A stretch of 21,805 nucleotides of DNA, from the IMG/VR virus record IMGVR_UViG_3300046318_000345, positions 1 to 21,805 of that record. The stretch is one strand, 5' to 3'. This stretch comes from a virus. This document shows, piece after piece, positions 1 to 19,711 of this stretch. The translations under genes were made by a program, and so were the position numbers. Every line of letters begins with the position of its first letter. Position 1 is the stretch's first letter. A model generated the notes under the pieces. The model did not search any database. It was not told the origin of the DNA and saw nothing but the letters and a program-made list of their open reading frames with translations.

Positions 1-1509
1 ACCTTTACGTGGTGTGAAAGTATTTGGATCGTATACTAATGGAGTCATGATTAATGGAACGTATGGAGCATAAACTGCACCTGTTTCCAAGAATTGAGAT
101 CCTCTGTAACCCATCAAGATTACGTTCTCAGTCATGTAAGGGTTTTTGTAAACTTTGTAACGAGAATTCAAGTTACCAACTTTTTGAACACCCATTGCAA
201 ATTCCATTTTGTCACCGTTTGTATCAGCAGCATATCCAGGGATTGATTCCAAGATTGTAGCTACAGAAGGAGAACATACTAAGAAGTTAGCTCCACCTCT
301 TAAAGTTTTTTGGTGAATTTTGTTAGATACTTTTTGGATTTTAGTTCCTAAAGTTCCGAACCATTGACCTTGAGTGTTGTAGAAATCTGAACTAGCGTTA
401 GACCAAGCACCATTTACATAGTTTTTGTTGTTTACTGCTGACCATCTTTCAGTTGTTGCAGCATCTTGGATCAACATGTCTAACAATTCTAAATCGATCT
501 CCATAGAGATGTACTCAGAAAGTAAAGATGTTAATTCAGCTTCAGCATCAATTGAATGGTAAGCATTCAAATCTTGTGCGAATTCTGGAGTCCATTGAGC
601 TTTTAATTTTCTTGTTTTAGCAACAATAGATTCAGAAGCTAATGATACGTTGATTTCTGGAATAGAGATTGTTCCGTTTGCTGGATCAATAGCTCCGTCT
701 TCGAAGTCTCCTCTTGTGTTGTCAGTTGGTTGTACGTGGTAAATAACTTTACCAGTTACTGTAGCTTGGTTTAAGAAAGCTGTGTCATCAACTACGAATG
801 TTACTGTATTTCCTGATACTGTAGTTAATTCTGGGAAAGATGTTACGTTAGTAGATCCTGAGTACAATCTGAAAGCTCTTACTCCTTTTTTGTCAAATGC
901 TACAGATGATAAATCAACTGCTACAGTTTTGAAGTCAGCTGGGTTGATACCGTCTTGGTAAGCGATAGATGCTGATGTAGCTGATCCTGTTGCGTTAGCT
1001 GTTACAGTAAATTCTTTAGCGTTAATTGAATAACCGAATTGACCTGCACCATATAAACCACCTGATACTTCTTCGTCTACTGCCAATTTATCGTTAGCTG
1101 TAGAAACGTTTCCGTATAAGTTCTCTCCTGCTGTTCTTCCGTTTACTGAAGTACCGTATTTGAAATCCAAATAGAAAACTAGACCTGAAGGTAAGTTCAT
1201 TGGTTGTACAGAAACGAAGTCTTTAGATGCGATTTGAGCGAATACTTTACGTACTAATGGTAAAGCTACTCCTGCCCACTGCTCTGCATTACCTGTACCA
1301 GTACCCATTGCACCGTTACCTGTAGTGTTAGCTTCAGATACTAATTGTTTTGCTTGATTCTCAAGAATCATAGCCATGTTGTTTTTCTCGATTTCGTTAG
1401 AAATACCTTCTAACAATCCAGATTTAGCCCATTTACCTGACAATCTAGCTGCATCAGCTTGTAAAGTCTTGTAGTTGTTAGACCCTTCTAATAATTGATT
1501 TAATTCCAT
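1..1509 (-). CDS. 23: Major capsid protein, T4 gp23-like (C-terminus off the window)
   Basis: This is the main shell protein of the phage head, translated from an ATG at 1509 with 503 codons visible and no stop before the left edge. The N-terminus matches the T4 gp23 layout: a KW..LLEG segment, an ILENQ segment (T4 has IFENQ), a flexible Gly/Thr stretch and then the VQPMN.PSGLVFYLDFKYG segment of the capsid fold. Further on are TPEFAQDLNAYHSIDAE, the EYISMEIDLELLDML helix and a TPRKG stretch at the edge. T4 gp23 is 521 residues, so probably little is missing. As in T4, an N-terminal propeptide is probably removed by the prohead protease; VSE at 57-59 and ILE at 48-50 fit its (I/L/V)xE rule. 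The gene lies 31 bases after the scaffold gene in the same unit. The identity is firm; the cleavage site is inferred. Confidence 0.96.
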   Translation of the reverse strand, partial: MELNQLLEGSNNYKTLQADAARLSGKWAKSGLLEGISNEIEKNNMAMILENQAKQLVSEANTTGNGAMGTGTGNAEQWAGVALPLVRKVFAQIASKDFVSVQPMNLPSGLVFYLDFKYGTSVNGRTAGENLYGNVSTANDKLAVDEEVSGGLYGAGQFGYSINAKEFTVTANATGSATSASIAYQDGINPADFKTVAVDLSSVAFDKKGVRAFRLYSGSTNVTSFPELTTVSGNTVTFVVDDTAFLNQATVTGKVIYHVQPTDNTRGDFEDGAIDPANGTISIPEINVSLASESIVAKTRKLKAQWTPEFAQDLNAYHSIDAEAELTSLLSEYISMEIDLELLDMLIQDAATTERWSAVNNKNYVNGAWSNASSDFYNTQGQWFGTLGTKIQKVSNKIHQKTLRGGANFLVCSPSVATILESIPGYAADTNGDKMEFAMGVQKVGNLNSRYKVYKNPYMTENVILMGYRGSQFLETGAVYAPYVPLIMTPLVYDPNTFTPRKG

Positions 1510-2910: not shown

Positions 2911-3147
2911 TTACTGTATATGACCTAGTAAATATAGTGTCTCTTCTATGTTAGACTCAACATCGTCAAAGTCACTTTCATTGGAAGCTATCTGATTCTC
3001 TCTCTTATACTGCTCTAAAATGTCTAGTGCGGCTTCTAAGTGTCTCTTAATATGAGTTGATGCTGTGTTTAGATCTAACTGCTCATTTAAAGCTGTTTTG
3101 CTTAAATGATTTGCTTGCCACTTATGTATATCAAAATTACTTTCCAT
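2911..3147 (-). CDS. Small acidic hypothetical protein between protease and scaffold genes
   Basis: A 78-residue protein I do not recognise. It has no transmembrane segment or signal peptide. Residues 18-50 look helical with heptad-like hydrophobics (HIKRHLEAALDILEQYKREN), followed by an acidic helix ending in YLLGHIQ. Its ATG overlaps the TAA of the protease gene (TAATG), which suggests translational coupling. It is the last gene before a strong terminator, so it closes the terminase-to-protease unit. Its place between the gp21-like and gp22-like genes makes a minor role in head assembly possible, but the sequence shows no more than that. Confidence 0.75.
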   Translation of the reverse strand: MESNFDIHKWQANHLSKTALNEQLDLNTASTHIKRHLEAALDILEQYKRENQIASNESDFDDVESNIEETLYLLGHIQ

Positions 3148-3725
3148 TATGCTCTTAGTATGTTATTTAAAATAGTATCCAATTTGTCGTACTTACCTGC
3201 TTTTACTTTTCCTTCATTCAATGAGATAGGATTCATAAATGCTCCTTGAGTAGATGGATTAGAAACAAAGTCCCAACATACTAACTCAAAATCTGGTTGT
3301 ACCATTAAAGTACCTTCGTTTGTTTGAGTTACAGATCCTGTACCTCTTGATGAAATACCTATTGTATGTCCTCCTTTTACTATCTCCTTAACGATGTTAC
3401 CTGCTGGTGTGTTAAGTAACTCAACTCTACCCATTAGGTCTTCTCCATCCCACCATAGTTCTTTTACAACGTGTGATGCATTCTTTAAAGAAACAATAGC
3501 TGATTCTGGATGATCTAATTCTCCGTAGGCGTTACCCACTTTAACGAAGTTCTCTATGTAGTTGTTTACTTCTTGTTCAAGAATTTCTCTCTTATAGATT
3601 CTTCCGTTTTGATTCTTGGCTCCTGCTCTCTGCATAATACCTACTACTTCAAATATACCTGGTTTGGTTTTTGATTCAGTAAGTACTGCTTTAAATGGAG
3701 TTACATTTACTAATAAATTACTCAT
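3147..3725 (-). CDS. 21: Prohead core protease, T4 gp21-like (peptidase S80 type)
   Basis: This serine protease matures the T4-type prohead by cutting scaffold and capsid proteins. The 192-residue length is close to T4 gp21 (212). Visible landmarks are GIMQRAGAKNQNGRIY (residues 29-44), the catalytic His in GELDHP (H72), the nucleophile Ser in GISSRG (S125 or S126) and the acidic residue in WDFVSNPS (D152), giving the His-Ser-Asp order of this family. The C-terminal tail is short and basic. The gene follows the 362-residue head-region gene after one base (TAAGATG) and overlaps the next gene by one base. It is expected to act inside the prohead; hydrophobic-x-Glu sites in the capsid and scaffold proteins fit its specificity. 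Confidence 0.95.
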   Translation of the reverse strand: MSNLLVNVTPFKAVLTESKTKPGIFEVVGIMQRAGAKNQNGRIYKREILEQEVNNYIENFVKVGNAYGELDHPESAIVSLKNASHVVKELWWDGEDLMGRVELLNTPAGNIVKEIVKGGHTIGISSRGTGSVTQTNEGTLMVQPDFELVCWDFVSNPSTQGAFMNPISLNEGKVKAGKYDKLDTILNNILRA

Positions 3726-5918: not shown

Positions 5919-7784
5919 CTAATTATCTAAATCTTGGATATTATCTTCGTTTAGTAAGTCTGACGTTTCTGGTTGACTTTCTTCAAAGATCATTGTCTTC
6001 TTTGGTACAAATATATCTTTGTTTCTTAAGAATACAACTTTAGTATTGTTAGTACTTTCTTTTACATTCTCAGCATCGCTTGGATACCCACCTTTCATTC
6101 CATGTACTCCTAATCTATCTCTTCCTCCAGCTGGATCCTTTTGTGTACCTAAAATAGAGGCTTTAACTCTTGGACGTCCTTCTGGTTGTACGTCTCTCTC
6201 ATCATATCCTGGTGGAACTTCTCCCTGTTCTCTACTTCCGTAGATAGAAGCTAAGTCGTGAGGTGTACCAAATGATTGTCCTGATACTACTGGATCGTTT
6301 CCTTCGTTCTCAATTTGTGATATTCTGAACTCTCTCTTAGCATCTTCTCTAACTAGATCTCTCATCTCGTTATAAGTGTCTTCTGATAAGTTGAAGATGT
6401 GATCGTAAATGTAATCTGTTGAGAACAATTTAGTCTCTTGCATTTGACGAGCTAAGTCTATTTTCTCTTTTAATAGAGCTACTTTTTCTTGCTCGTAGAT
6501 GATTGATGGTGTAGTTAGCTTAATCTCAAAGTTAGTAAGAGATTCTCCTCTAAACCCTTGAGCATATAAATGCACCAATCCTATCTTAGTTAATTCACTC
6601 TCAAGTATTCTCTGTATTCTTTCAACTGATCTTGCAAAACGAATATCCTCAGATGCTAAAGTTGCTTTACCACTTAAGTCTTTTTCGTATCCAAAATACG
6701 CTTTTGGCACTTTTAGTGCAGCAAACATCTTGTCTCTTAAGTACTCAACGTCATTTGTTCCATCATACTCTAATCCTTTTGTAGTTTCAATACGAGTTGA
6801 AGTATCACCTCCACGAACTGGAAGGTAGAAATCCTCCATCATATTCATCATATTGAATCTCAAGTTGTATTCTCCTGTTTGAGGATCTACGTATGGAGTC
6901 TTTTTGATGCTGTTGATAGTCTTTTGCATGAACTGCTCTACCTCATTTGGTGGAATAGATCCTACATTAACATAGAACATCCTTTTCTCAGGAGCTCTCA
7001 TGATACGGTGAATTAGCATCGCATCTTCCATAAGAGTTAATTGCTTGTATATCTTACGAGCTGGTTCAATATGCGATCTACCGTATGGTAAGTAGTTTGT
7101 ATCTGATAGTAATCTGAAGTGGGCTACCTCGTAGTTGTCTAACGTAATAGTTGATTTGTTAGCCTTAGGTATGTAGTTTGGATCTGCTGATGAAGCTAAT
7201 CCGTCTGGATCGATTGAGAATATTACTTTTGAAGGTTGTGTTGGGTCTTGTCCCTCATAACGTACCATGTTGTATACCGTGTAAGGTAGTACATTATAAA
7301 CTCCAAATTCGTCTGAGATCTCTAGCTTTAAAAAGAAGTCACCATACTTACACATGTTACGAGTCCATGACCATAAGTTAAACTCAATATTCAATACATC
7401 GTAGTATAGGTTATATAATACTCTCTGGATACTCTCATCTGATGATTTGATAGAAAGAACTTCTCCCATATCATTCTTCAATGTAGCCTCATCTGCTAAG
7501 ATGTCTAATGTAGATGCAATAATTGGATCGGTGTCCATTGCTTCATAATCCGAATAAAGTTGAATTCTTAATGTTTGGTAATTAAGATTCGGATTAAATA
7601 TATTTTTGTTGTTATAGATATAGAGACGTGAGAATCTGTCTAATAGAGAGTTGGTTTGGTACTTACCAGTTGTTTGAATTTGGTTAGTATCCATTATCTT
7701 CAACTCATCCCCTCCTACGTTCCTTACTAGTATGTCAGTAGAGAATAATCGCTGTAGTGAAGAAAATAAATTTCTTTCTGCCAT
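5919..7784 (-). CDS. 20: Portal vertex protein, T4 gp20-like
   Basis: The portal forms the dodecameric DNA-entry ring at one head vertex and docks the terminase. At 621 residues it is longer than T4 gp20 (524). Family landmarks are DPIIASTLDILADE (86-99), NYEVAHFRLLSDTNYLPYGRS with EPARKIYKQLTLMEDAMLI in the middle, RIMRAPEKRMFYV and the clip/stem region ending MFAALKVPKAYFGYE.....ATLASEDIRFARSVERIQ. The extra length is mainly a C-terminal tail of about 120 residues rich in Gly, Pro and Asp, ending with an acidic stretch, which looks disordered. The gene starts 30 bases after the terminase stop and has a TATTTATA motif 16 bases before its ATG, with an A-rich leader and no Shine-Dalgarno. The assignment is secure; the tail's role is unknown. 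Confidence 0.96.
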   Translation of the reverse strand: MAERNLFSSLQRLFSTDILVRNVGGDELKIMDTNQIQTTGKYQTNSLLDRFSRLYIYNNKNIFNPNLNYQTLRIQLYSDYEAMDTDPIIASTLDILADEATLKNDMGEVLSIKSSDESIQRVLYNLYYDVLNIEFNLWSWTRNMCKYGDFFLKLEISDEFGVYNVLPYTVYNMVRYEGQDPTQPSKVIFSIDPDGLASSADPNYIPKANKSTITLDNYEVAHFRLLSDTNYLPYGRSHIEPARKIYKQLTLMEDAMLIHRIMRAPEKRMFYVNVGSIPPNEVEQFMQKTINSIKKTPYVDPQTGEYNLRFNMMNMMEDFYLPVRGGDTSTRIETTKGLEYDGTNDVEYLRDKMFAALKVPKAYFGYEKDLSGKATLASEDIRFARSVERIQRILESELTKIGLVHLYAQGFRGESLTNFEIKLTTPSIIYEQEKVALLKEKIDLARQMQETKLFSTDYIYDHIFNLSEDTYNEMRDLVREDAKREFRISQIENEGNDPVVSGQSFGTPHDLASIYGSREQGEVPPGYDERDVQPEGRPRVKASILGTQKDPAGGRDRLGVHGMKGGYPSDAENVKESTNNTKVVFLRNKDIFVPKKTMIFEESQPETSDLLNEDNIQDLDN

Positions 7785-7814: not shown

Positions 7815-9389
7815 CTATCCTAATAGCCAGGATAAATCCTCTTCTCCGTTAGGTGTCTTCATAAGATAAGGATTATTTTGCATAGGAGCAACATTAAACA
7901 CAGCAGTATTTCTCTGATTAAGGCTTACAAACGAAGACATAGTAGCTCTTGATAAGTCCATACCCTGTTGTCTCATTCTAATAGCTGTATCTCGTACATA
8001 TAGTGCTGTAGCAAAAGGCATTACAAGGTCATCATTGTATCCTGTTTGAGCTTGAGCTTTTCCATTCTTCCAAATGAATACCCTTAGCTCACCTAATAAT
8101 CGTTTTGATTGTAATACAACTGATCTCTCTCTTACGTACTCTGTCATCTTAGCAATAACTAATGGACGAGTCTTTAGTGACATAGTAAATCCTGGAACTA
8201 GTTTATCCCTTTCGAATTTAGCCATATATGATTCAACTGTTTCAGTGTCTGATCTGGATGAGTAGTATAGGTTCTTGTACTCTCTTTCTAATATTTGTTC
8301 AATGGTTGACCATCCAATATTTGCATTCTCTACTACAAGTAGTGCATCGTTGTATTCAGATGCTATTCCTACAAGTACGTTTCCGAACTCCTTAGGAGAT
8401 AGTTTGCCTTTATATTCAGCAACTTGTGTTACTGTTTCAATATCAAATACGTGGAATGCAGAGTAGTCAGTAGAGTCTCCCCTAGCAACGTCGGCAACAA
8501 CCATATACGATTTAGTGTAGTCAGGTGATTCCCATACCCACAAGTTACCATCAACTCCTCTTTTCTCTGTAGGCTCCTTTACGTAGGTCTCTTCGTAGAA
8601 TGATAGGTTCTCAACCTCAATTACAGTATCTCCAGATGACATGAAATCGCAATCACACTCTTGTGCTGCATGCTTTTCTCCTAGTTGTCTTGTTTGCTCA
8701 TCTCTCCAAGATTGATCTCTTTCTGGATGTACATCCCATTTTAGTTTAACAGGTATAAATCCATTCTCTCCTGCTTCTGCTTTTTCCCATGTCTTATGGA
8801 ACCAGTTACCTACACCATTTGGAGTAGAAAGTGCCATACACTGACCTCCTGTAGCAAGAGTTTGTTGTGCTGCAGTAAACGTCTCTTCAATGTTATCAAT
8901 AAACGCTGCCTCATCAATTAGAAGTAGTGATACTGCTTCAGAACGTGCTGCATCTGAGTTAGATGATTTAGCTGCTATCTTAGATCCGTTCTTAAGTCTT
9001 AGTGATAGTTTGTTCTTCTCTGTAAACGGTAATTGTAGCCACTTAGGTAGATTCTCGTACATGAAAATCGTTTTGGTAACTAAGTTACGAGCTGTTGCTT
9101 GAGTAATAGCTAATGCTAGTACGTTCTTATCTTTGTGGAAGATCATTAACCATAAAGCATATGCTGAGGCTAATGTCGATATCCCTAACTGTCTTGACTT
9201 TAGTGTAACGATCATCTTCTCATCTCTAAATAGATGAAGAACTCCCTCTTGGAATGGGTATAGGTTGAATAGGATTCGACCTCTTGTTGGATGTTGTATG
9301 TAGCAATACTTCTTCATGAAGTAGGCTGGATCCTTAGCACACTTAATGTACTCTTGTGCAACTATTTGTTTTATATCCTGTTGTGACAT
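7815..9389 (-). CDS. 17: Terminase large subunit, T4 gp17-like
   Basis: This motor pumps DNA into the prohead and cuts the concatemer. The 524-residue protein (T4 gp17 is 610) has an N-terminal ATPase with a Walker-A-like KSRQLGIST (64-72), Walker B LLLIDEA (155-161, catalytic E160) and coupling motif STPNG (188-192). The C-terminal RNase-H-like nuclease shows VVADVARGDSTDYSAF (first Asp D300), the middle acidic residue in VVENANIG (E354) and NDDLV (D453/D454). All key residues are present, so it should be active. It opens a new transcription unit: a terminator lies just upstream and a TATTTATA motif ends 17 bases before the ATG. Its usual small-subunit partner is not recognisable next to it. 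In T4, tail genes 18 and 19 follow; here the portal follows directly. Confidence 0.97.
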   Translation of the reverse strand: MSQQDIKQIVAQEYIKCAKDPAYFMKKYCYIQHPTRGRILFNLYPFQEGVLHLFRDEKMIVTLKSRQLGISTLASAYALWLMIFHKDKNVLALAITQATARNLVTKTIFMYENLPKWLQLPFTEKNKLSLRLKNGSKIAAKSSNSDAARSEAVSLLLIDEAAFIDNIEETFTAAQQTLATGGQCMALSTPNGVGNWFHKTWEKAEAGENGFIPVKLKWDVHPERDQSWRDEQTRQLGEKHAAQECDCDFMSSGDTVIEVENLSFYEETYVKEPTEKRGVDGNLWVWESPDYTKSYMVVADVARGDSTDYSAFHVFDIETVTQVAEYKGKLSPKEFGNVLVGIASEYNDALLVVENANIGWSTIEQILEREYKNLYYSSRSDTETVESYMAKFERDKLVPGFTMSLKTRPLVIAKMTEYVRERSVVLQSKRLLGELRVFIWKNGKAQAQTGYNDDLVMPFATALYVRDTAIRMRQQGMDLSRATMSSFVSLNQRNTAVFNVAPMQNNPYLMKTPNGEEDLSWLLG

Positions 9390-11508: not shown

Positions 11509-13407
11509 TTATAGTGCTTCTGGTGTTTCTGGTTCTGCTGTCTCTTCTCCGCCTTCTGGTGCTTCTTCACCACCTTCTTCTGCTCCAAATTCTTCTCCTC
11601 CTGCTTCAGCACCTGGAAAGTCTCCTCCAGTACCTCCACTTGCGGCTGGTTCAGCTGCAAAGTCCTCTCCTCCTGGTTCTTCACCTTGAGTAATTGGTCC
11701 GTCTCTTAGCACTCTTCCAATACTATCTAATGCTTGTTGGTAAGCTGCTGTTCCTCCTAAGTAGTACCTCTTACCCTCAATGTTAGCCTGAAAATCCTTA
11801 CCCATCCATCTTAAGTCGAATGATTGTCCGTTCTTAAGTACTACTTTGAAAGTAGATGGCTTAGGTACTGTCCATCTTACATCCTCTACGAATTCATCGT
11901 ACTCTGGTGTAAGTAGGGATACTAGTGTCTTTTTTACTGTTGGGAACTTACCTAGTATTTCTTGAGTTGATGTTGGAAGAACTGCTTCTTGTTCTGTAAG
12001 TACCTCCACATATGCTTCAAGTATTGCTTCTTTTAAGTCATTTTTAGAGATAACATCTCTTCTGTGTTTTAAGTACTTATCAGTCTTATCAACTTTTCCA
12101 TCATTATCGATATCGTCATCTTCTTTTCCTACTGGATCTAGTGCTTCGTCAACTTTGTCGTACTTGCAGTTTTTACTACCTGTAAAATATGGAGTTGGAT
12201 GTGATGTCCCTTTTACGTGCACATGTCCACATTTGTGGCAGCATGTTCCTTTCTTTTCGCTCAATCCAACAACTACTGTTGAAGGTACTTGTTCATCTTT
12301 CTCAGATTGCATATACCCTGCTGTAATATCTAGATAATCTTCTGCTTTAGTTAACTTTGCTTGAACCCAAGCATCTAACTGCTCATCATCTCCTAACAAA
12401 TTCATTAACTTGCTTGCATTTGATTGGATAGACTTTAGTTGTGCTTTTGCCATTGATGATTCATCATCTGGCTGTAAATGATCGTCCTCTTGTAAAGCAG
12501 GTGCATTCATTTTGATAAAGTCGTCTGATACTGCAAATACTACTACCTTTCCTGCACCATTGTCAGATACCTCAAGATCCTCTAGGTTATAAGTTGCTTG
12601 TAACTTATCTGCTACTGCTTGTCCGATTTTCATTGCTTTTTGAATACCGTACTCTCTTTCTTGTCCTGATAGTGTTGTTTGTCCGTAAGCCTTTAAGTAG
12701 CCTTCTCCCTCTGGGTATTTTATAAATACTTTTAGGAAGTTAGGGTTGTTAGGATCCTTAGTAGCATATGGCTTAAAGTCCTGTGAGTTAAAGTTACCTT
12801 CTGCTATATTTTTATTGATTTGAGATTCGTCACCTGGTAATTCGTTAGCTGCCATGTCGTCATATTCTTCGTCTGAAGGAGTTGATACATATTTAACCAT
12901 TGCATCAGTTAGCTTATCCTGTAGTTGTGGTGTTGGAAGCGATACTTCGTTACCTTGAGTGATTAAGAAGTCACACAATTCAATAGGTCCTTGTTCTGAA
13001 TCTAAAGCGATTGACTTTAACTGAGGGCTTAGTATGAATCTAAAGGTATCTTGTCCTTTATCCTGTCCGTACTCTACGTGGATGTTAAACTTGTTAACTC
13101 CTACTCCTGTCAGTTTAAGTGATTTTAATTCATCACCTTGAGCTCTTAGTACTTTCACCAATGACTTAGCTACCTCATATCCTACTGCTCCAGATTCCTC
13201 TGTAGTGTATTTGTCGATACCTTCTTCTAGGTTCCCTTTTACGTTCTTACCTGATGCTGTTTTAATTGCAGCAATGTCTTGGTTGTCCGCAAGGTCCTTA
13301 AGTTCTTGATCATTCTTGTAATCAATGGTAGACTTATCTCCTTGTGTAGTTTTTATAAAGGCAGTTTTTTCTCCTGACTCTTTCAATCTTATTCTCAATT
13401 TTTTCAT
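11509..13407 (-). CDS. Large multidomain hypothetical protein with Cys/His cluster and EF-hand-like loop
   Basis: A 632-residue protein of unknown function. The N-terminal 300 residues have two alpha/beta-like segments (for example [20 protein letters not shown] and [12 protein letters not shown]). At 340-366 is a helix [20 protein letters not shown], a segment I associate with many short phage proteins. Residues 389-414 hold C389, C390, C393, H395, H397, H403 and C414, a likely metal site. Right after it, residues 432-443 form a textbook 12-residue calcium-loop pattern, [12 protein letters not shown]. Residues 500-570 form a small beta domain, and the last 60 residues are Gly/Glu/Ala low complexity. 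The gene lies after a 92-base gap with a TATTTATT motif. Probably a virion or assembly protein; this is inferred from composition and position. Confidence 0.7.
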
Positions 13408-14939: not shown

Positions 14940-15518
14940 CTAGTCTTGTAAATGCTTTCTAGCGTGTTGTAAGTAGTCCTTTAAGTGTTCTGATAGCTCG
15001 TTATCTGTCTTAGTTTTGTTTCCTTTCCAATCCTCGATATCTCCTTGTTCTGTTACGAAGGTATCGACTGAATTGATTGAGTCTAATATATACTGCTCTA
15101 CGTCTACTAGGAATGCTCTCAAACTTCCCTGTATCATAGCCTTTTCGTATGCATCATATAAACCTGCTTTTCTAAGCTCTGCTTCGTAGTTGATTACACA
15201 GTCAAAGCACATTCTATGTATCTTGTACATCTTCTGACTTAGGTGGTAGTTCATAGTACCTCCACATTTTGGACAAGTAAGTGGAGTCTGTAGTGCTTTT
15301 TTAGCAGCATCTAGTTTAGTAATATTCTGCTTAAGTCCATCCTTAATAGTCCAAGTACGTCCGTTCTCTTCCCAGATGTCTCCCTCATTGTGAACTTCAT
15401 GTGCCTTTTGGTACCCTACTCCGTCAACAGTCTTAGCTGAGAAGTCCTTATTAACTAGGTTCCTTGCTCTATTTACGTCTCTTGATTTAAACTCTTTTTT
15501 AAGTAAGCTCTCGCCCAT
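14940..15518 (-). CDS. Zinc-ribbon-like conserved phage protein
   Basis: A 192-residue protein. Residues 43-67 (HNEGDIWEENGRTWTIKDG, then KQNITKLD) and the four-Cys site C82-x2-C85 ... C104-x2-C107 (CPKCGG ... CFDC) form the recognisable core; a similar arrangement occurs in uncharacterised proteins of many marine phages. The Cys pairs, 18 residues apart, should bind one zinc. The N-terminus is basic (SRDVNRARNLVNK), suggesting nucleic-acid contact, and the C-terminus is helical with a charged end. It begins 20 bases inside the end of the HAD phosphatase gene, with the context AGGTTATG shared by two neighbours. The role may be transcriptional or structural; this is undecided. Confidence 0.8.
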   Translation of the reverse strand: MGESLLKKEFKSRDVNRARNLVNKDFSAKTVDGVGYQKAHEVHNEGDIWEENGRTWTIKDGLKQNITKLDAAKKALQTPLTCPKCGGTMNYHLSQKMYKIHRMCFDCVINYEAELRKAGLYDAYEKAMIQGSLRAFLVDVEQYILDSINSVDTFVTEQGDIEDWKGNKTKTDNELSEHLKDYLQHARKHLQD

Positions 15519-16086
15519 AACCTAACTCTTTTAATTGATTGATAACTGATTGTACGTCTCCGTCTTTACATTCGATTGCTATTCCTCCTTTAGCAGCAAA
15601 TGCTCTTAGGTTGGATGGTTTATCATCTATAAGGATTGCGTTCTCATTTGCAAAGTCTGCTTTTGCTGATCCAAATCTAAACTCTACAGGAGGTGCTGGT
15701 GATAGGTGGTTCCTAACCCACATCTTCTTTCCTAGTCTTGAAGTATTGTCTCTTGATGGAGAGGTTAGTATTGTTGGATGATATGGTTCAAGGAAGTCCC
15801 ACAGTTGCTTACCGTTGGGCATCCATTCCATTTCTGACCAGAATACGATTCCTACGTATTGATCGATCAGTTTCCAAAACTCTGTTTCTCCTTCTATTGC
15901 TGTAAAGTGCTTAGGTCTTGTAACCTTAGCTATTGTCTCTTTTGAGTAGTATTTTGGACCCTCTTTACGAAGCATCTCAAGGAACCTCTTTTCGAAGTCA
16001 GTTAGTACTCCATCCATATCACAGTACAATTTGTACTTAGGAACAAAGTCCTCTTCTGTAAGTAGTAGTTGTTTTAGTGTTCTCAT
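15499..16086 (-). CDS. HAD-superfamily phosphatase/nucleotidase-like protein
   Basis: A 195-residue hydrolase of the haloacid dehalogenase superfamily, probably cytosolic. Motif I is YCDMDGVLTDF (nucleophile D23 and acid/base D25), motif II is ILTSPS (S109), motif III Lys is likely K120 or K121 in GKKMWVRN, and motif IV is LIDDKPSN (D154-D155). The small cap between residues 30 and 100 and the D-M-D-G-V-L-T-D start resemble 5'(3')-deoxyribonucleotidase-like phage and bacterial proteins, so a nucleotide or sugar phosphate is a likely substrate. All catalytic residues are present. It lies 11 bases after the HExxH gene and its end overlaps the zinc-ribbon gene by 20 bases. Fold is firm, substrate inferred. 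Confidence 0.88.
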   Translation of the reverse strand: MRTLKQLLLTEEDFVPKYKLYCDMDGVLTDFEKRFLEMLRKEGPKYYSKETIAKVTRPKHFTAIEGETEFWKLIDQYVGIVFWSEMEWMPNGKQLWDFLEPYHPTILTSPSRDNTSRLGKKMWVRNHLSPAPPVEFRFGSAKADFANENAILIDDKPSNLRAFAAKGGIAIECKDGDVQSVINQLKELGYGRELT

Positions 16087-16097
16087 AACCTATTGTA

Positions 16098-16724
16098 TTA
16101 TATTATTGCTTTTATTCCTAATTGATTTGCCCTGTTTCTCCATAGTGTAAGTATTTCTTTCTTTTCTGCAACAGTTATTTTCTGTGAGTTTAGATAGTTG
16201 TCTACTACTTTTGAGAATTTGACCTTTTCCTTCTTAGCTCTGAAGTACATTCCTTGTAGGTTTGCATCTACCTCTTTGTCTAATTTAAAGTATTCTGCTC
16301 GAGGAAGCAAACGAGTATTTACCATTTGTCTAATAGCTGCATCATCCTCCATCATCTTACTTGGAACACTATTCCAACCCTCTCCATGAATAAGGTGCTC
16401 TATTTCATGTCTGAATAGGTCCTTTAGGTTCATCGATATCTCTTCCCAATAGTCTGGGATTAGTTTAGGATCTATTTCGAATCGTGCTTGAATAAAGTCC
16501 TCATCTTCGAGATCAGCATCATATCCTGCTCCTCCATCTACGTTTAACCTACTTAGTCCTTTCTTAAATACTATGTTAGCGTCTATATCAAAACATATGT
16601 CCTCAAGTTGGTAGGACGTATCTACTCGTACTCTTAGCTTGCCTTGTTCAAATCCCTCTTTCCAAGCATTAAATACTATTGAAGATGCTTCGTTAGCTGC
16701 CCTGTTGTACTTGTTGTTCCTCAT
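16098..16724 (-). CDS. HExxH metallopeptidase-like protein
   Basis: A 208-residue protein with FRHEIEHLIHGEG (residues 105-117), a classical zinc-metallopeptidase helix (H106, E107, H110). A likely third ligand is E151 in KEVDANLQGMYFRAKK, a spacing and context seen in phage gluzincin-like proteins. The N-terminal half (30-90) is beta-rich and acidic (VDGGAGYDADLEDEDF), and the C-terminus is basic and helical. There is no signal peptide, so it acts in the cytoplasm or the virion. It starts 32 bases inside the end of the three-domain gene, which itself ends with another HExxH domain, so two unrelated-looking metallopeptidase modules are translated back to back. The target protein is unknown. 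Confidence 0.8.
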   Translation of the reverse strand: MRNNKYNRAANEASSIVFNAWKEGFEQGKLRVRVDTSYQLEDICFDIDANIVFKKGLSRLNVDGGAGYDADLEDEDFIQARFEIDPKLIPDYWEEISMNLKDLFRHEIEHLIHGEGWNSVPSKMMEDDAAIRQMVNTRLLPRAEYFKLDKEVDANLQGMYFRAKKEKVKFSKVVDNYLNSQKITVAEKKEILTLWRNRANQLGIKAII

Positions 16725-18798
16725 AACCTTTTTGTTCGTTTTTTATTTTATCTTCCCAATTTCTAAAAGTGATATTACCTGTTAGGTATGCCTCTTTTTC
16801 TATGTCCATTAAATGGTCATCCTCATTTGTATTAGTTGTTTGAATGTTACCCAATCTCCCTTCCAAATTTTGCATGTGGTGAACCATCTCATGTGAGAAT
16901 GATCGTAATACGTCCTTAGGATTTCTTCCTAAAATATAAAGAACTACTTCTTTATTATTTGGATCGTAGTAGGCAGTCTTACCAAACAAGTCATTTGCTT
17001 GTTGTGGGTCTTTTACTGTTTTAATAGATGGGATAGGTGTGATGTTCATTCCCTGATCCATCATATATTCTAATAATGATGCAATGTATGGAGTGTAGTC
17101 GAACTTAGGCTCAACATCCTCTGGTAATGCTTTTTGGTAAGGTGTATAATCGAACCCTGATTGAGAGTCTTGTACTCTTGTAATGTAGATTCTATCCTGC
17201 TGAAACTCTGTTCTGAACTTAGTCTTGTCTAGCTGATCTCTTAGTTGATCGTATACGTTAACTAAATCTGCTCTATCCTTTGATGATATTGCTGAGGATG
17301 CTTGAATTGGTACTCCTGTTACGTTCTCTTTTACCTTGCTTTTTGTAGGAAAGAAACTCTCAAATACCTCATCAACTGCTCCTAACATCTTATCTTCGAT
17401 AGATGGTTCATCCTTTGGAGTTACTATTTCTATTACTTTCATCTTATCGTCTTTTGAAAGCACATTTGGTATCCACTTTCCGCTTACCATGTACTCCTTT
17501 GATTGTCTTATTTGTGTAGCAGAGAATTTATCATCCTCTTTACCTACAATAACTGGTAGAGTTTTTACTTCTACTTTAGGATACTTGTCTCTGTTTTTAG
17601 TAAACGATGTGAACTTACCTGCCTCATCAGCCATTGTACCTGTTATAATGTGGTCCACTTCTGATTGGTATTGATCTACCCAGTCATATACATCCTTAAT
17701 AGGTGTTATTTGGCTTAGGACAACCTCTACTGGTGTTGCTAAATACTTAGCGTATATCTCCCAAATTGCTTTTGACTGCTCTGGTGTGATAGCAACTCCT
17801 TCTCTTATCTTTGGTCCTACAAATATAATCAACTTATCTGCATTTTGAGATAGTACTCTTGCATTCTCATAGTGTGCCTTATGTGGTGGTTTAAATCCTC
17901 CTGCATAAAGTGCTACTGTAATTAACTGATCGTCATTACCTTCAGATAGAGTTTGTGCTACTTTTTCAAGTGCATCTTCTTTACCCTTACCCTTAGCTGT
18001 TCCTACTTCTCCTGATTTAACAGATACCATTGATCTGAATATACCTGCAATCCTGTTTTTAGATCTAGGATTGTTTAGCTTTCTAGCAATATCATCTAAT
18101 AAGTCCTCAAATGATCCATCAATATTAAATCCTTGGAATAGTATTTTAATAGTACCCCAATTAGTTGTTGACCATATTTCTTCTCTAGCTACTTCTTTGA
18201 AGTTCTCTAGCTTGACTTTTCTAAGACTTAACTTAACTGATGATAAGTTAAACTCATACTCCTCTCCTTTACTTAATGCAGGTACGTTTGAGATACCCAT
18301 TCTTCTCATTACATCTTGAGGATCTTGCTCCAGTAAAATCACTTTAGCCAATCCTATTAATAGTCCTTGCTTTTCAGCAGGTAAGTCTAAGAATGATCCT
18401 TTGAATACTGATTCTTCTTCTGTTAATGCAATGATGTTATCTACTTGAATGAACTCGTCTTTTTTTCCTGCAATAGGAAACAATACTGAGATTAGCTCTC
18501 CTGAGTTGTAGTATCTTCTACCTGTGTATTTTTCACTCTTAAAAGGAACGATTACATTCTGTGGTAGTTTATTTACAGCATCAATTAGTCTTTGCTTTAC
18601 CTCTTTCTTATCATCTCCTTCAAACCAAGTAATAATATCCAAGTCACCAAAGTCAGCTTTTGAACCTGCTTTTACAGATCCAGAAAGAGATGCTTTTTTA
18701 AATCCAGGTACATGCTTAAGTACTTGATCTACATATGCATTGAACGTAGATTGTACATCCTGTTTTAGTATCCTATTTCCTCCTGCTACTCCTGACAT
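16693..18798 (-). CDS. Three-domain protein: Pol-beta-type nucleotidyltransferase, HIGH-type nucleotidylyltransferase, HExxH metallopeptidase
   Basis: A 701-residue fusion. Domain 1 (about 1-160) is a Pol-beta-type nucleotidyltransferase: LSGSVKAGSKADFGDLDIIT gives the GS motif (G40-S41) and metal-binding D52/D54, with D120 in FIQVDNI as probable third acid. Domain 2 (about 292-445) resembles NMN/pantetheine adenylyltransferases: LYAGGFKPPHKAHY with H306/H309 of the HxGH motif (here HKAH) and FSATQIR (425-431) matching the second (I/S)SxTxIR motif. Domain 3 (about 580-690) carries FSHEMVHHMQNLEGRL, with H636, E637 and H640, and a probable third ligand in DIEKEAY (E667 or E669). A linker at 470-570 looks flexible. 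All active sites appear intact. It starts four bases after the second nucleotidyltransferase gene. Substrates are unknown; NAD or nucleotide chemistry is only a suggestion. Confidence 0.85.
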   Translation of the reverse strand: MSGVAGGNRILKQDVQSTFNAYVDQVLKHVPGFKKASLSGSVKAGSKADFGDLDIITWFEGDDKKEVKQRLIDAVNKLPQNVIVPFKSEKYTGRRYYNSGELISVLFPIAGKKDEFIQVDNIIALTEEESVFKGSFLDLPAEKQGLLIGLAKVILLEQDPQDVMRRMGISNVPALSKGEEYEFNLSSVKLSLRKVKLENFKEVAREEIWSTTNWGTIKILFQGFNIDGSFEDLLDDIARKLNNPRSKNRIAGIFRSMVSVKSGEVGTAKGKGKEDALEKVAQTLSEGNDDQLITVALYAGGFKPPHKAHYENARVLSQNADKLIIFVGPKIREGVAITPEQSKAIWEIYAKYLATPVEVVLSQITPIKDVYDWVDQYQSEVDHIITGTMADEAGKFTSFTKNRDKYPKVEVKTLPVIVGKEDDKFSATQIRQSKEYMVSGKWIPNVLSKDDKMKVIEIVTPKDEPSIEDKMLGAVDEVFESFFPTKSKVKENVTGVPIQASSAISSKDRADLVNVYDQLRDQLDKTKFRTEFQQDRIYITRVQDSQSGFDYTPYQKALPEDVEPKFDYTPYIASLLEYMMDQGMNITPIPSIKTVKDPQQANDLFGKTAYYDPNNKEVVLYILGRNPKDVLRSFSHEMVHHMQNLEGRLGNIQTTNTNEDDHLMDIEKEAYLTGNITFRNWEDKIKNEQKGYEEQQVQQGS

Positions 18799-18802
18799 AT
18801 TA

Positions 18803-19711
18803 TTACTTTTTATATTGTATTAAGTTAGAATTATCTGGTAAGAATTTACCTGTTAATGCCAATCTATCTTGATTTTGTATCCAGTATTCTTGTAGGTCTT
18901 CTGGTATGTCACATCTAGTTTTATCTAGGATTCTTAAGTAAGTGTCGTACACTCCGTATAAATCCTCTTTAGATAATCCTGCTTCTAGTGTCTCCATTAG
19001 TTTAAAGTAGTCTCCTACAGTATCTCTAGTTAGTTTTAGTCCGTAAAGACTGTTTAGTAGATCCACTGCTTGTTGAGGATTGTTTGCTACAATCTCTTGA
19101 GTGTCTCTATTTTTTACTCCATAGTTATGAGAGAATATATAACCCTTGTGTGAGAACAAAGAAACCATTAATTGGGTTCTGTGTAATCCTTTTACGTTTC
19201 CTGCATAGGTTGCTGAATGGTATGCAAATGATAACCAGTCTACATCTCCTACGTTAATATCAATCTGTACGTTTTGACCTACTACTTGGTTGGTTTCATC
19301 GTATTGTGGAAAAAGTAGAAACAATGCTCCTGCTCCTGATCCTTTTATGTCTGCTATAATCTCTGTATCGGCATCTAAGATCTTTTGAGCTACAGCAACA
19401 ATCACTGCTCGTTTCATTAACTGATCGTCAGTAGATGTTCTTGCTCTTTTTTTGAATCCTTGAAATAAGTCTTGAACGTGTTTCTCGTCTAATCCCCAAT
19501 CATTAATATCATCAAAGGATGACCCAGCTAATGCTAGGTCAATGTCCCCTGAGTAATCTTTTTTTCCTACAGATCCTAGTGTCTTCATCTCTCTGAAGAA
19601 TGGTTCTGCTTTAGGAAATATGTTCTTAAACTGTCTTAGGAATTCCTTAAGAGTTGGTTTAATGTGTTCTTTTTTTATTGGTGCTGTACTATCGAATACG
19701 TTTCCTCCCAT
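18803..19711 (-). CDS. Pol-beta-type nucleotidyltransferase-like protein
   Basis: A 302-residue protein beginning MGGNVFDSTAPI, a start seen (from memory) in uncharacterised nucleotidyltransferases of marine phages. TLGSVGKKDYSGDIDLAL (44-61) carries the GS motif (G46-S47) and metal-binding D56 and D58; VQIDINVGD supplies the probable third acid D151. The segment GAGALFLLFPQYDE before it and HRTQLMVSLFSHKGYIFSHN after it are typical of the fold's palm extension. The C-terminal third is helical. It precedes, by four bases, a second protein whose first domain has the same motif order (GS, DxD, D), so the two may be ancient duplicates or partners. The transferred nucleotide and the target are unknown. 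Confidence 0.85.
   Translation of the reverse strand: MGGNVFDSTAPIKKEHIKPTLKEFLRQFKNIFPKAEPFFREMKTLGSVGKKDYSGDIDLALAGSSFDDINDWGLDEKHVQDLFQGFKKRARTSTDDQLMKRAVIVAVAQKILDADTEIIADIKGSGAGALFLLFPQYDETNQVVGQNVQIDINVGDVDWLSFAYHSATYAGNVKGLHRTQLMVSLFSHKGYIFSHNYGVKNRDTQEIVANNPQQAVDLLNSLYGLKLTRDTVGDYFKLMETLEAGLSKEDLYGVYDTYLRILDKTRCDIPEDLQEYWIQNQDRLALTGKFLPDNSNLIQYKK

Follow-up and report, generated by a model that had tools for sequence, protein, structure and literature searches.

A T4-like phage head operon encodes a three-module enzyme protein that is probably a head-packaged polyprotein cut by a gp21-type protease

The window analyzed here is the whole 21,805-nucleotide stretch of IMG/VR virus record IMGVR_UViG_3300046318_000345 (positions 1 to 21,805). 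It encodes P701, a 701-residue protein in which three intact enzyme modules were confirmed: a Pol X/Pol-beta-type nucleotidyltransferase (NTA), a HIGH-superfamily adenylyltransferase (the NMN module) and a zincin metallopeptidase (ZN1). P701 sits beside the virion genes for portal, terminase, protease, scaffold and capsid in a T4-like head operon, which makes up the window. P701 is probably a head-cargo polyprotein, cut by a gp21-type protease into enzymes that are injected with the DNA. Feature coordinates are collected in Table 1; there and in the text, a slash within a site or leader marks the cut position.

An earlier note, made from the letters of the DNA alone, had described a Pol-beta-type nucleotidyltransferase, an NMN/pantetheine-adenylyltransferase-like domain and a metallopeptidase fused in one phage protein. 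The open reading frame (ORF) is real and lies on the minus strand; the note had given no strand. All the motifs that it named (Table 1) were present, far beyond chance. Relatives were taken from uncultivated viral contigs. L-numbers denote loci; L082 and L083 are from the isolate Flavobacterium phage immuto. Among unique relatives, D52 and D54 of NTA were found in 65/65 and D120 in 64/64. In the NMN module, H309 was conserved in 135/135 and R431 in 134/134, and position 306 was H or T throughout. The five ZN1 residues H636, E637, H640, E667 and E669 were each conserved in 143/143.

P701 was modeled with AlphaFold2 from a 47-sequence alignment. The mean predicted local distance difference test score (pLDDT) was 80.5, and the predicted template modeling score (pTM) was 0.45. 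The low pTM is as expected, because the domains are independent. The folded cores (1-286, ~292-464 and ~566-690) are separate domains, predicted with confidence. The chain holds at least two different enzymatic domains; each of its three modules is folded, and the catalytic residues of each are conserved. Segments with pLDDT below 50 were 287-290, 419-423, 464-471, 483-501, 545-564 and the C-terminus. The structure prediction and fold search that the earlier note had proposed as a check returned the expected fold in modules 1 and 2; for module 3, absence of the fold is unlikely. In the PDB, a single-sequence search turned up weak matches only, so profile and fold searches were needed. Because all Pfam and NCBIfam matches of P701 fell under the family cut-offs, and PHROGs matches were weak, its families are almost invisible to sequence search.

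Residues 1-230 of P701 aligned with DNA polymerase lambda (4fo6; Z 12.2, 178 residues aligned, root-mean-square deviation (rmsd) 3.3) and with TdT (Z 12.1). By its G-S...DxD...D motif and modeled palm fold, NTA belongs to the Pol X/Pol-beta superfamily, and transferase activity is predicted. The gene directly upstream encodes NTB, a second nucleotidyltransferase-like protein. A profile-profile match suggests that NTA and NTB share an ancestor, but it falls short of showing kinship because it was confined to the GS/DxD region (E 1.2e-3, probability 19%). The NTB profile matched no nucleotidyltransferase in the PDB.

For module 2, residues 292-463 aligned with the phosphopantetheine adenylyltransferase (PPAT, CoaD) 1gn8 (Z 12.8, 148 residues aligned, rmsd 3.3), and the nicotinamide mononucleotide (NMN) adenylyltransferase (NMNAT) 2r5w was close behind (Z 12.5). 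The profile search with this module found PPAT 3nd5 (E 4e-6). Its T/HxxH and SxTxxR motifs and its predicted Rossmann-like fold place it in the HIGH superfamily. The top profile and fold matches were thus CoaD, and a modeled fold of this kind does not reveal the substrate. The NCBIfam models for adenylyltransferases of NMN and nicotinic acid mononucleotide (NaMN) scored 11.5-16 bits on P701 against cut-offs of 127-418. Because these cut-offs were missed by a wide margin, 'HIGH-type adenylyltransferase' is the preferred label. CoaD structures and profiles fit the module slightly more closely, so the name 'NMN adenylyltransferase' cannot be taken as established. The family assignments of the earlier note stood for all three modules.

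ZN1 was folded as its L003 homologue (74% identical), jointly with ZN2, a second HExxH protein, in the natural fusion of L003 (pLDDT 86.5). The best VIA-align neighbors of this model were all zincins: Wss1 (Z 8.1), IrrE (7.7), ArdC (7.2) and anthrax lethal factor (6.7); Foldseek found nothing in the PDB below E 0.001. As the Z scores are moderate and Foldseek gave no significant PDB match, the zincin call depends above all on the HExxH...E motif, which is invariant. The fold search with this model covered chiefly ZN1. The HExxH motif and downstream Glu of ZN2 were conserved in 86-87 of 87 relatives, and the ZN2 profile matched nothing in the PDB. In immuto gp088 (907 residues), L003-L007, L009 and L015, ZN2 continues the reading frame of the P701 homologue. 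In the window, P701 and ZN2 overlap at 16693-16724 in different reading frames; many relatives have the fused form. A sequencing frameshift behind this split is not favored: the 98%-identical contig L001, perhaps the same phage species as the window, is split identically.

The junctions between the modules carry a prohead-protease signal. T4 gp21 cleaves after L/I-x-E (PMC9026906). This specificity seems to be kept in the window, with V allowed, because the site QLVSE/ANTTG of its capsid protein aligns with FLTE/AEIGG of T4 gp23. Three sites are predicted in P701, the third with less certainty, and all three coincide with linker segments that AlphaFold2 left disordered (Table 1). Site 2, VKE491/N492, resembles the capsid protein site VSE/ANTTG. 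Similarly, in the ZN1-ZN2 model of L003, the sole segment with pLDDT below 50 (126-129) lies just ahead of VMAE132/GRYD.

In 142 non-redundant leaders and linkers (last 40 residues), [LIVMF]xE was present in 126, versus 73 after shuffling. The site count was 197 versus 98.6 shuffled (z 12.7). Control motifs in the same linkers stayed at chance: z was 0.9 for the mirror motif and -0.6 to 0.5 for D, K or N at P1. Q at P1 (z 3.1) and a spacing one residue longer (z 4.2) were both far weaker than the gp21-type motif. Because the starts of ZN2, NTB and the rare fused NTA had been anchored on Glu, the test was rerun on the non-anchored junctions. These gave z 9.3, or 8.3 at 50% redundancy, with the mirror motif at 0.9-1.0. 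Inside domains, [LI]xE was slightly depleted (384 versus 420). The shuffled, mirror and D/K/N controls speak against Glu-rich linkers as the sole cause of the motif.

The same signal ends the leaders of modules encoded on their own. Outside the M-GGNV subgroup, NTB had 30 distinct leaders of widely differing sequence, mostly of 13-18 residues, such as MISFAKFFKTKQILAE, MLQFSFSNYYKTVSLLSE and MIKLTSLLKQILNE, followed by GGN. In 29 of the 30, [LI]xE ended exactly at the module. For loci fetched by other modules the figure was 17/18, which is the fairer number because the pattern of one scan began with [ME]GGNVF. Standalone ZN1 genes start with MTKLTYLLTE/MYAEPSK, and fused ZN1 follows PLNE/MYAEPSE. 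The NTA-NMN junction of L018, KLFKGLVRELILPLIE/AD, resembles the leader MNSLVKALIQPLLE/AM of genes that begin with the NMN module. P701 starts with MSGVA where the fusion L233 reads TLNE/SGSA, so that the gene start falls at the cut position; the NTB of the window likewise starts with MGG where other loci read xE/GG. Among the ORFs of immuto, [LIVM]xE occurred in the first 26 residues of 20/21 in the packaging block versus 68/176 elsewhere (Fisher p 3.5e-7). Many small head-operon proteins of unknown function in immuto (L082) and the window belong to leader families, among them MENFDLKKFLVENKLT and MKKSQLRxIIKEAL, which resemble further capsid-targeting sequences.

Leaders of this kind are also found on cyanophage cytidyltransferases of the HIGH superfamily: MKKFSAFLNE/AERS (S-SM1_190, which is T4-GC190), MKKFSAFLSE/AERS (Syn9), MKSFLQFLKE/AAES (S-SCSM1), MKSFSQFLTE/TTAT (P-SSM2) and MKSYKEFLSE/ARQK (S-H38). 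Glu stands at position 10 in all five. The start of T4 IPIII is closely similar to these leaders. T4-GC190 was found in purified S-SM1 virions (PMC3037559), and the S-SCSM1 ORF91 protein was found in virions by authors who list further cases (PMC9602691). For the targeting of IPIII, its first 10 residues are enough (PMC9026906). In the window, residues ~420-461 of a 632-residue head-operon protein (11509-13407, minus strand) contain a motif common to several PHROG families (phrog_4359, phrog_764 'cytidyltransferase') and cyanophage S-SM1_191.

The earlier note had guessed that related fusions exist unstudied in marine phages, and they were found in aquatic phages. P701 had 95 related places, with homologues of 33-98% identity, and searches with single modules gave 449, 205 and at least 232. 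In deposited phages, relatives of P701 were confined to four immuto records, and Synechococcus phage B23 weakly matched ZN1. Immuto gp088 (YP_010114595.1), annotated as 'NMN adenylyltransferase', was 72.5% identical over 98% of P701 in the same gene order. No P701 relative was found in the bacterial and archaeal genomes searched, so at that sensitivity P701 is not a host gene or a common prophage gene.

We mapped 244 loci with profile hidden Markov models of NTA, NTB, NMN, ZN1 and ZN2. The order NTA-NMN-ZN1, for which the earlier note had proposed a profile search, was found in 55 proteins, the 55 homologues of the site counts in Table 1. Other architectures included NMN-ZN1, NMN-ZN1-ZN2, NTA-NMN-ZN1-ZN2, ZN1 alone, ZN2 alone, ZN2 before ZN1, and a HIGH transferase followed by NTB and NTA (L233). 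Swapped or single zincins were seen in L063, L151 and L155, and many relatives had the adenylyltransferase and zincin without NTA. Because the modules shuffle freely and occur alone or without NTA, we regard them as independent cargo modules and not as a coupled catalytic unit. In the mapped architectures, a HIGH-type transferase came after NTA in nearly every case, either PPAT-like or, as in L202, NMNAT-like. In L202 (residues 287-513) and L233 (residues 1-243), NTA was paired with a different HIGH transferase of NMNAT style (GRFQPFHKGH and GRFQPFGKHH), which suggests that Pol X-like and HIGH-type transferases have been paired recurrently.

Some relatives carry further segments. A phosphatase domain of the NT5C/HAD family, the same family as the window ORF at 15499-16086, is fused into the cargo protein of L049, and an extra segment in some relatives is zinc-ribbon-like. 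Between NMN and ZN1, residues 555-596 of L018 resemble a HYD1-type ADP-ribosyltransferase toxin (sub-threshold Pfam E 4.5e-4), which fits the theme of injected effectors; YHxT segments of L151 and L155 resemble this stretch. In L012 (5001-8151), the linker between NMN and ZN1 is interrupted, with extra sequence inserted at this point and two overlapping ORFs of 547 and 522 residues. Immuto genes annotated at 18607-37015 (L083) include QueC, QueD, QueE, FolE, QueF-like and DpdA, suggesting that immuto DNA carries a 7-deazaguanine modification.

The head operon also contains a scaffold gene and, between the terminase gene and P701, several ORFs of unknown function. The prohead protease gene lies 13 kb from P701 in the same operon (Table 1).

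Table 1. Features of the window, in order of coordinates
Feature	Coordinates	Strand	Remarks
Major capsid protein, gp23-type	1..1509	minus	Cut by window edge; alignment with T4 gp23
Inferred capsid maturation site QLVSE59/ANTTG	1330-1341	minus	Aligned with T4 gp23 FLTE/AEIGG
gp21-type prohead protease, proposed cutter	3147..3725	minus	phrog_207, E 6e-52; aligned with T4 gp21
Portal protein, gp20-type	5919..7784	minus	Operon position shared with immuto gp074 (gp20-like in its annotation); start almost identical
Terminase large subunit	7815..9389	minus	Position and start MSQQDIKQIVAQEYIKCAKDP as in annotated immuto terminase gene
NT5C/HAD phosphatase	15499..16086	minus	PF06941, E 1e-8; phrog_2643; leader MRTLKQLLLTE/EDF
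ZN2	16098..16724	minus	208-residue second HExxH protein; overlaps P701 end by 32 nt
P701	16693..18798	minus	701 residues, ATG start, single open frame; three-module protein
ZN1 module, residues 561-701	16696..17118	minus	Zincin metallopeptidase; H636ExxH640, E667/E669
Possible site 3, LPE560/D561	17116..17127	minus	Within pLDDT<50 segment 545-564; [LIVMF]xE in the 14 residues preceding ZN1 in 46/55
Residues 492-560	17119..17325	minus	Small helix and two strands between sites 2 and 3 (AlphaFold2 secondary structure)
Predicted site 2, VKE491/N492	17323..17334	minus	Within pLDDT<50 segment 483-501; [LIVMF]xE[GASN] in linker in 53/55
NMN module, residues 287-491	17326..17940	minus	HIGH-superfamily adenylyltransferase, CoaD/NMNAT-like; H306xxH309, SATQIR431; C-terminal linker helix
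Predicted site 1, LSE286/G287	17938..17949	minus	Adjoins pLDDT<50 segment 287-290; [LIVMF]xE at junction in 55/55 homologues
NTA module, residues 1-286	17941..18798	minus	Pol X/Pol-beta-type nucleotidyltransferase; G40-S41, D52-x-D54, D120
NTB	18803..19711	minus	302 residues, nucleotidyltransferase-like; GS46-47, D56xD58, D151; directly upstream of P701

On the interpretation that we consider probable, P701 would be made late, alongside the head proteins, and would enter the prohead core. There the gp21-type protease would cut the linkers at E286/G287, E491/N492 and probably E560/D561. The nucleotidyltransferase (Pol X-like), adenylyltransferase (CoaD/NMNAT-like) and zincin set free in this way would be injected with the DNA and act as independent early effectors in the new host.

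Several points weigh against the head-cargo interpretation. Virion proteomics for this phage group was not found in the literature. The [LIVMF]xE motif is short, with 12 matches in P701, several of them within folded domains. Related phages do not provide independent linkers, although z stayed at 8.3 in the 50%-identity set. Between the cyanophage transferases and module 2, similarity is only distant (24% identity, E 4e-3). The start of ZN2 in the window (MRNNKYNRAANEASS) does not have the usual E/GRYD boundary signal. Finally, P701, which starts with MSGVAGG at the module, does not have an N-terminal L/I-x-E leader, nor does the NTB of the window, which bears on how P701 would enter the head. 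An isolated helix before site 2 (467-482) may serve as a substitute targeting element; it is a candidate because the standalone ZN1 gene of L021 begins with a similar stretch.

Three other explanations were considered. P701 could be a self-processing polyvalent protein whose linkers are cut by ZN1, alone or together with ZN2, either ahead of packaging or once it has been injected; zincin self-processing has been proposed for DdrB of phage P1 and others (Iyer et al. 2017, PMC5512222). The invariance of the zincin residues agrees with this, as does the position of zincins as the hub of polyvalent proteins, where they are proposed to free modules (PMC5512222). However, the linker signal was of the gp21 type, L/I-x-E, with controls at chance, and it also ended the leaders of zincin-free standalone modules such as NTB. 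Standalone ZN1 has a leader as well, and the target of the zincin may be host proteins instead. We consider self-processing unlikely. The earlier note had proposed both release by proteolysis and cutting of the protein by its own peptidase. Release was a good guess in light of the junction signals, with the prohead protease as the likely cutter; for self-cutting, no feature examined linked linker cutting to the zincin.

Somewhat less probable still is that P701 is an auxiliary metabolic NMN adenylyltransferase, joined to the other modules by a chance fusion and supplying NAD in the infected cell. It would agree with the immuto annotation and with a HIGH fold carrying H/TxxH and SATxxR, for which the Z scores of NMNAT and CoaD are close; an NAD role has also been suggested for the virion NMNAT of S-SCSM1 by its authors (PMC9602691). 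Yet the NMN/NaMN models stayed far below their cut-offs, the gene lies in a head operon and is punctuated by protease sites, a NadV-like gene was not among the immuto annotations, and the other modules would be left unexplained. The scheme of the earlier note, read here as a nucleotide product from module 2, its attachment to a target by module 1 and control of release by module 3, appears very improbable. Three intact active sites in one chain and the near-constant order of NTA before a HIGH-type transferase are what such an assembly line would give, but NTA is absent from many relatives, zincins occur alone or in swapped order, and the modules are set apart by flexible linkers that carry cut signals. 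The free shuffling of modules thus spoke against coupled action.

Polyvalent proteins combine several enzymes, are rich in zincins, are encoded near virion genes and are likely injected; the zincin has been proposed to free the parts (Iyer et al. 2017, PMC5512222). P701 is like them in being large and multidomain, with a zincin hub, a place near virion genes, and shuffled enzyme domains predicted to be injected. By these sequence-level features it falls among polyvalent proteins; what sets it apart is its domain set, together with the head-protease sites predicted at its joints. The polb-NTase was placed solely in polyvalent proteins of conjugative elements (PMC5512222), and text searches of that paper did not find a CoaD/NMNAT-type module. 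Unlike the proteins described there, P701 of this T4-like phage joins a Pol X-like to a HIGH-type transferase and has gp21-type sites between its modules. Among the open-access papers searched, we found none describing gp21-type sites between the enzyme modules of a polyvalent protein.

The internal proteins and Alt of T4 (PMC9026906) share with the present system a short leader ending in L/I-x-E, packaging in the prohead core, cutting by gp21, ejection, and exchangeable cargo. The T4 cargo described in that paper has terminal propeptides, whereas P701 strings several enzymes together, has a predicted site at every joint between them and does not start with a leader. Cyanophage T4-GC190 and S-SCSM1 ORF91 are alike in being HIGH-superfamily transferases of T4-like virions with the T4-like leader MKxFxxFLxE/. 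In contrast to P701, the cyanophage transferases examined (376-425 residues) showed neither a Pol X-like nor a zincin module, and the sequence similarity is distant. The only close relative found among isolates is immuto gp088, which differs in its fused ZN2, a separate overlapping ORF in the window.

A broader and more tentative idea is that uncultivated aquatic T4-like phages share a cassette system. Each module would carry a protease signal or follow one, genes would be joined, split and reshuffled, and the head protease would always free separate injected enzymes, the Pol X-like transferase included. Such genes are mostly unannotated in marine and freshwater T4-like phages, and the present families lie below curated cut-offs. 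If P701 is cut and packaged as proposed, a short cleavage signal together with a head-operon location would flag injected effectors of these phages from sequence. The puzzling nucleotidyltransferases published from cyanophage virions would extend to a wider system of packaged enzymes, and there would be polyvalent proteins divided by the capsid protease and not by a built-in zincin.

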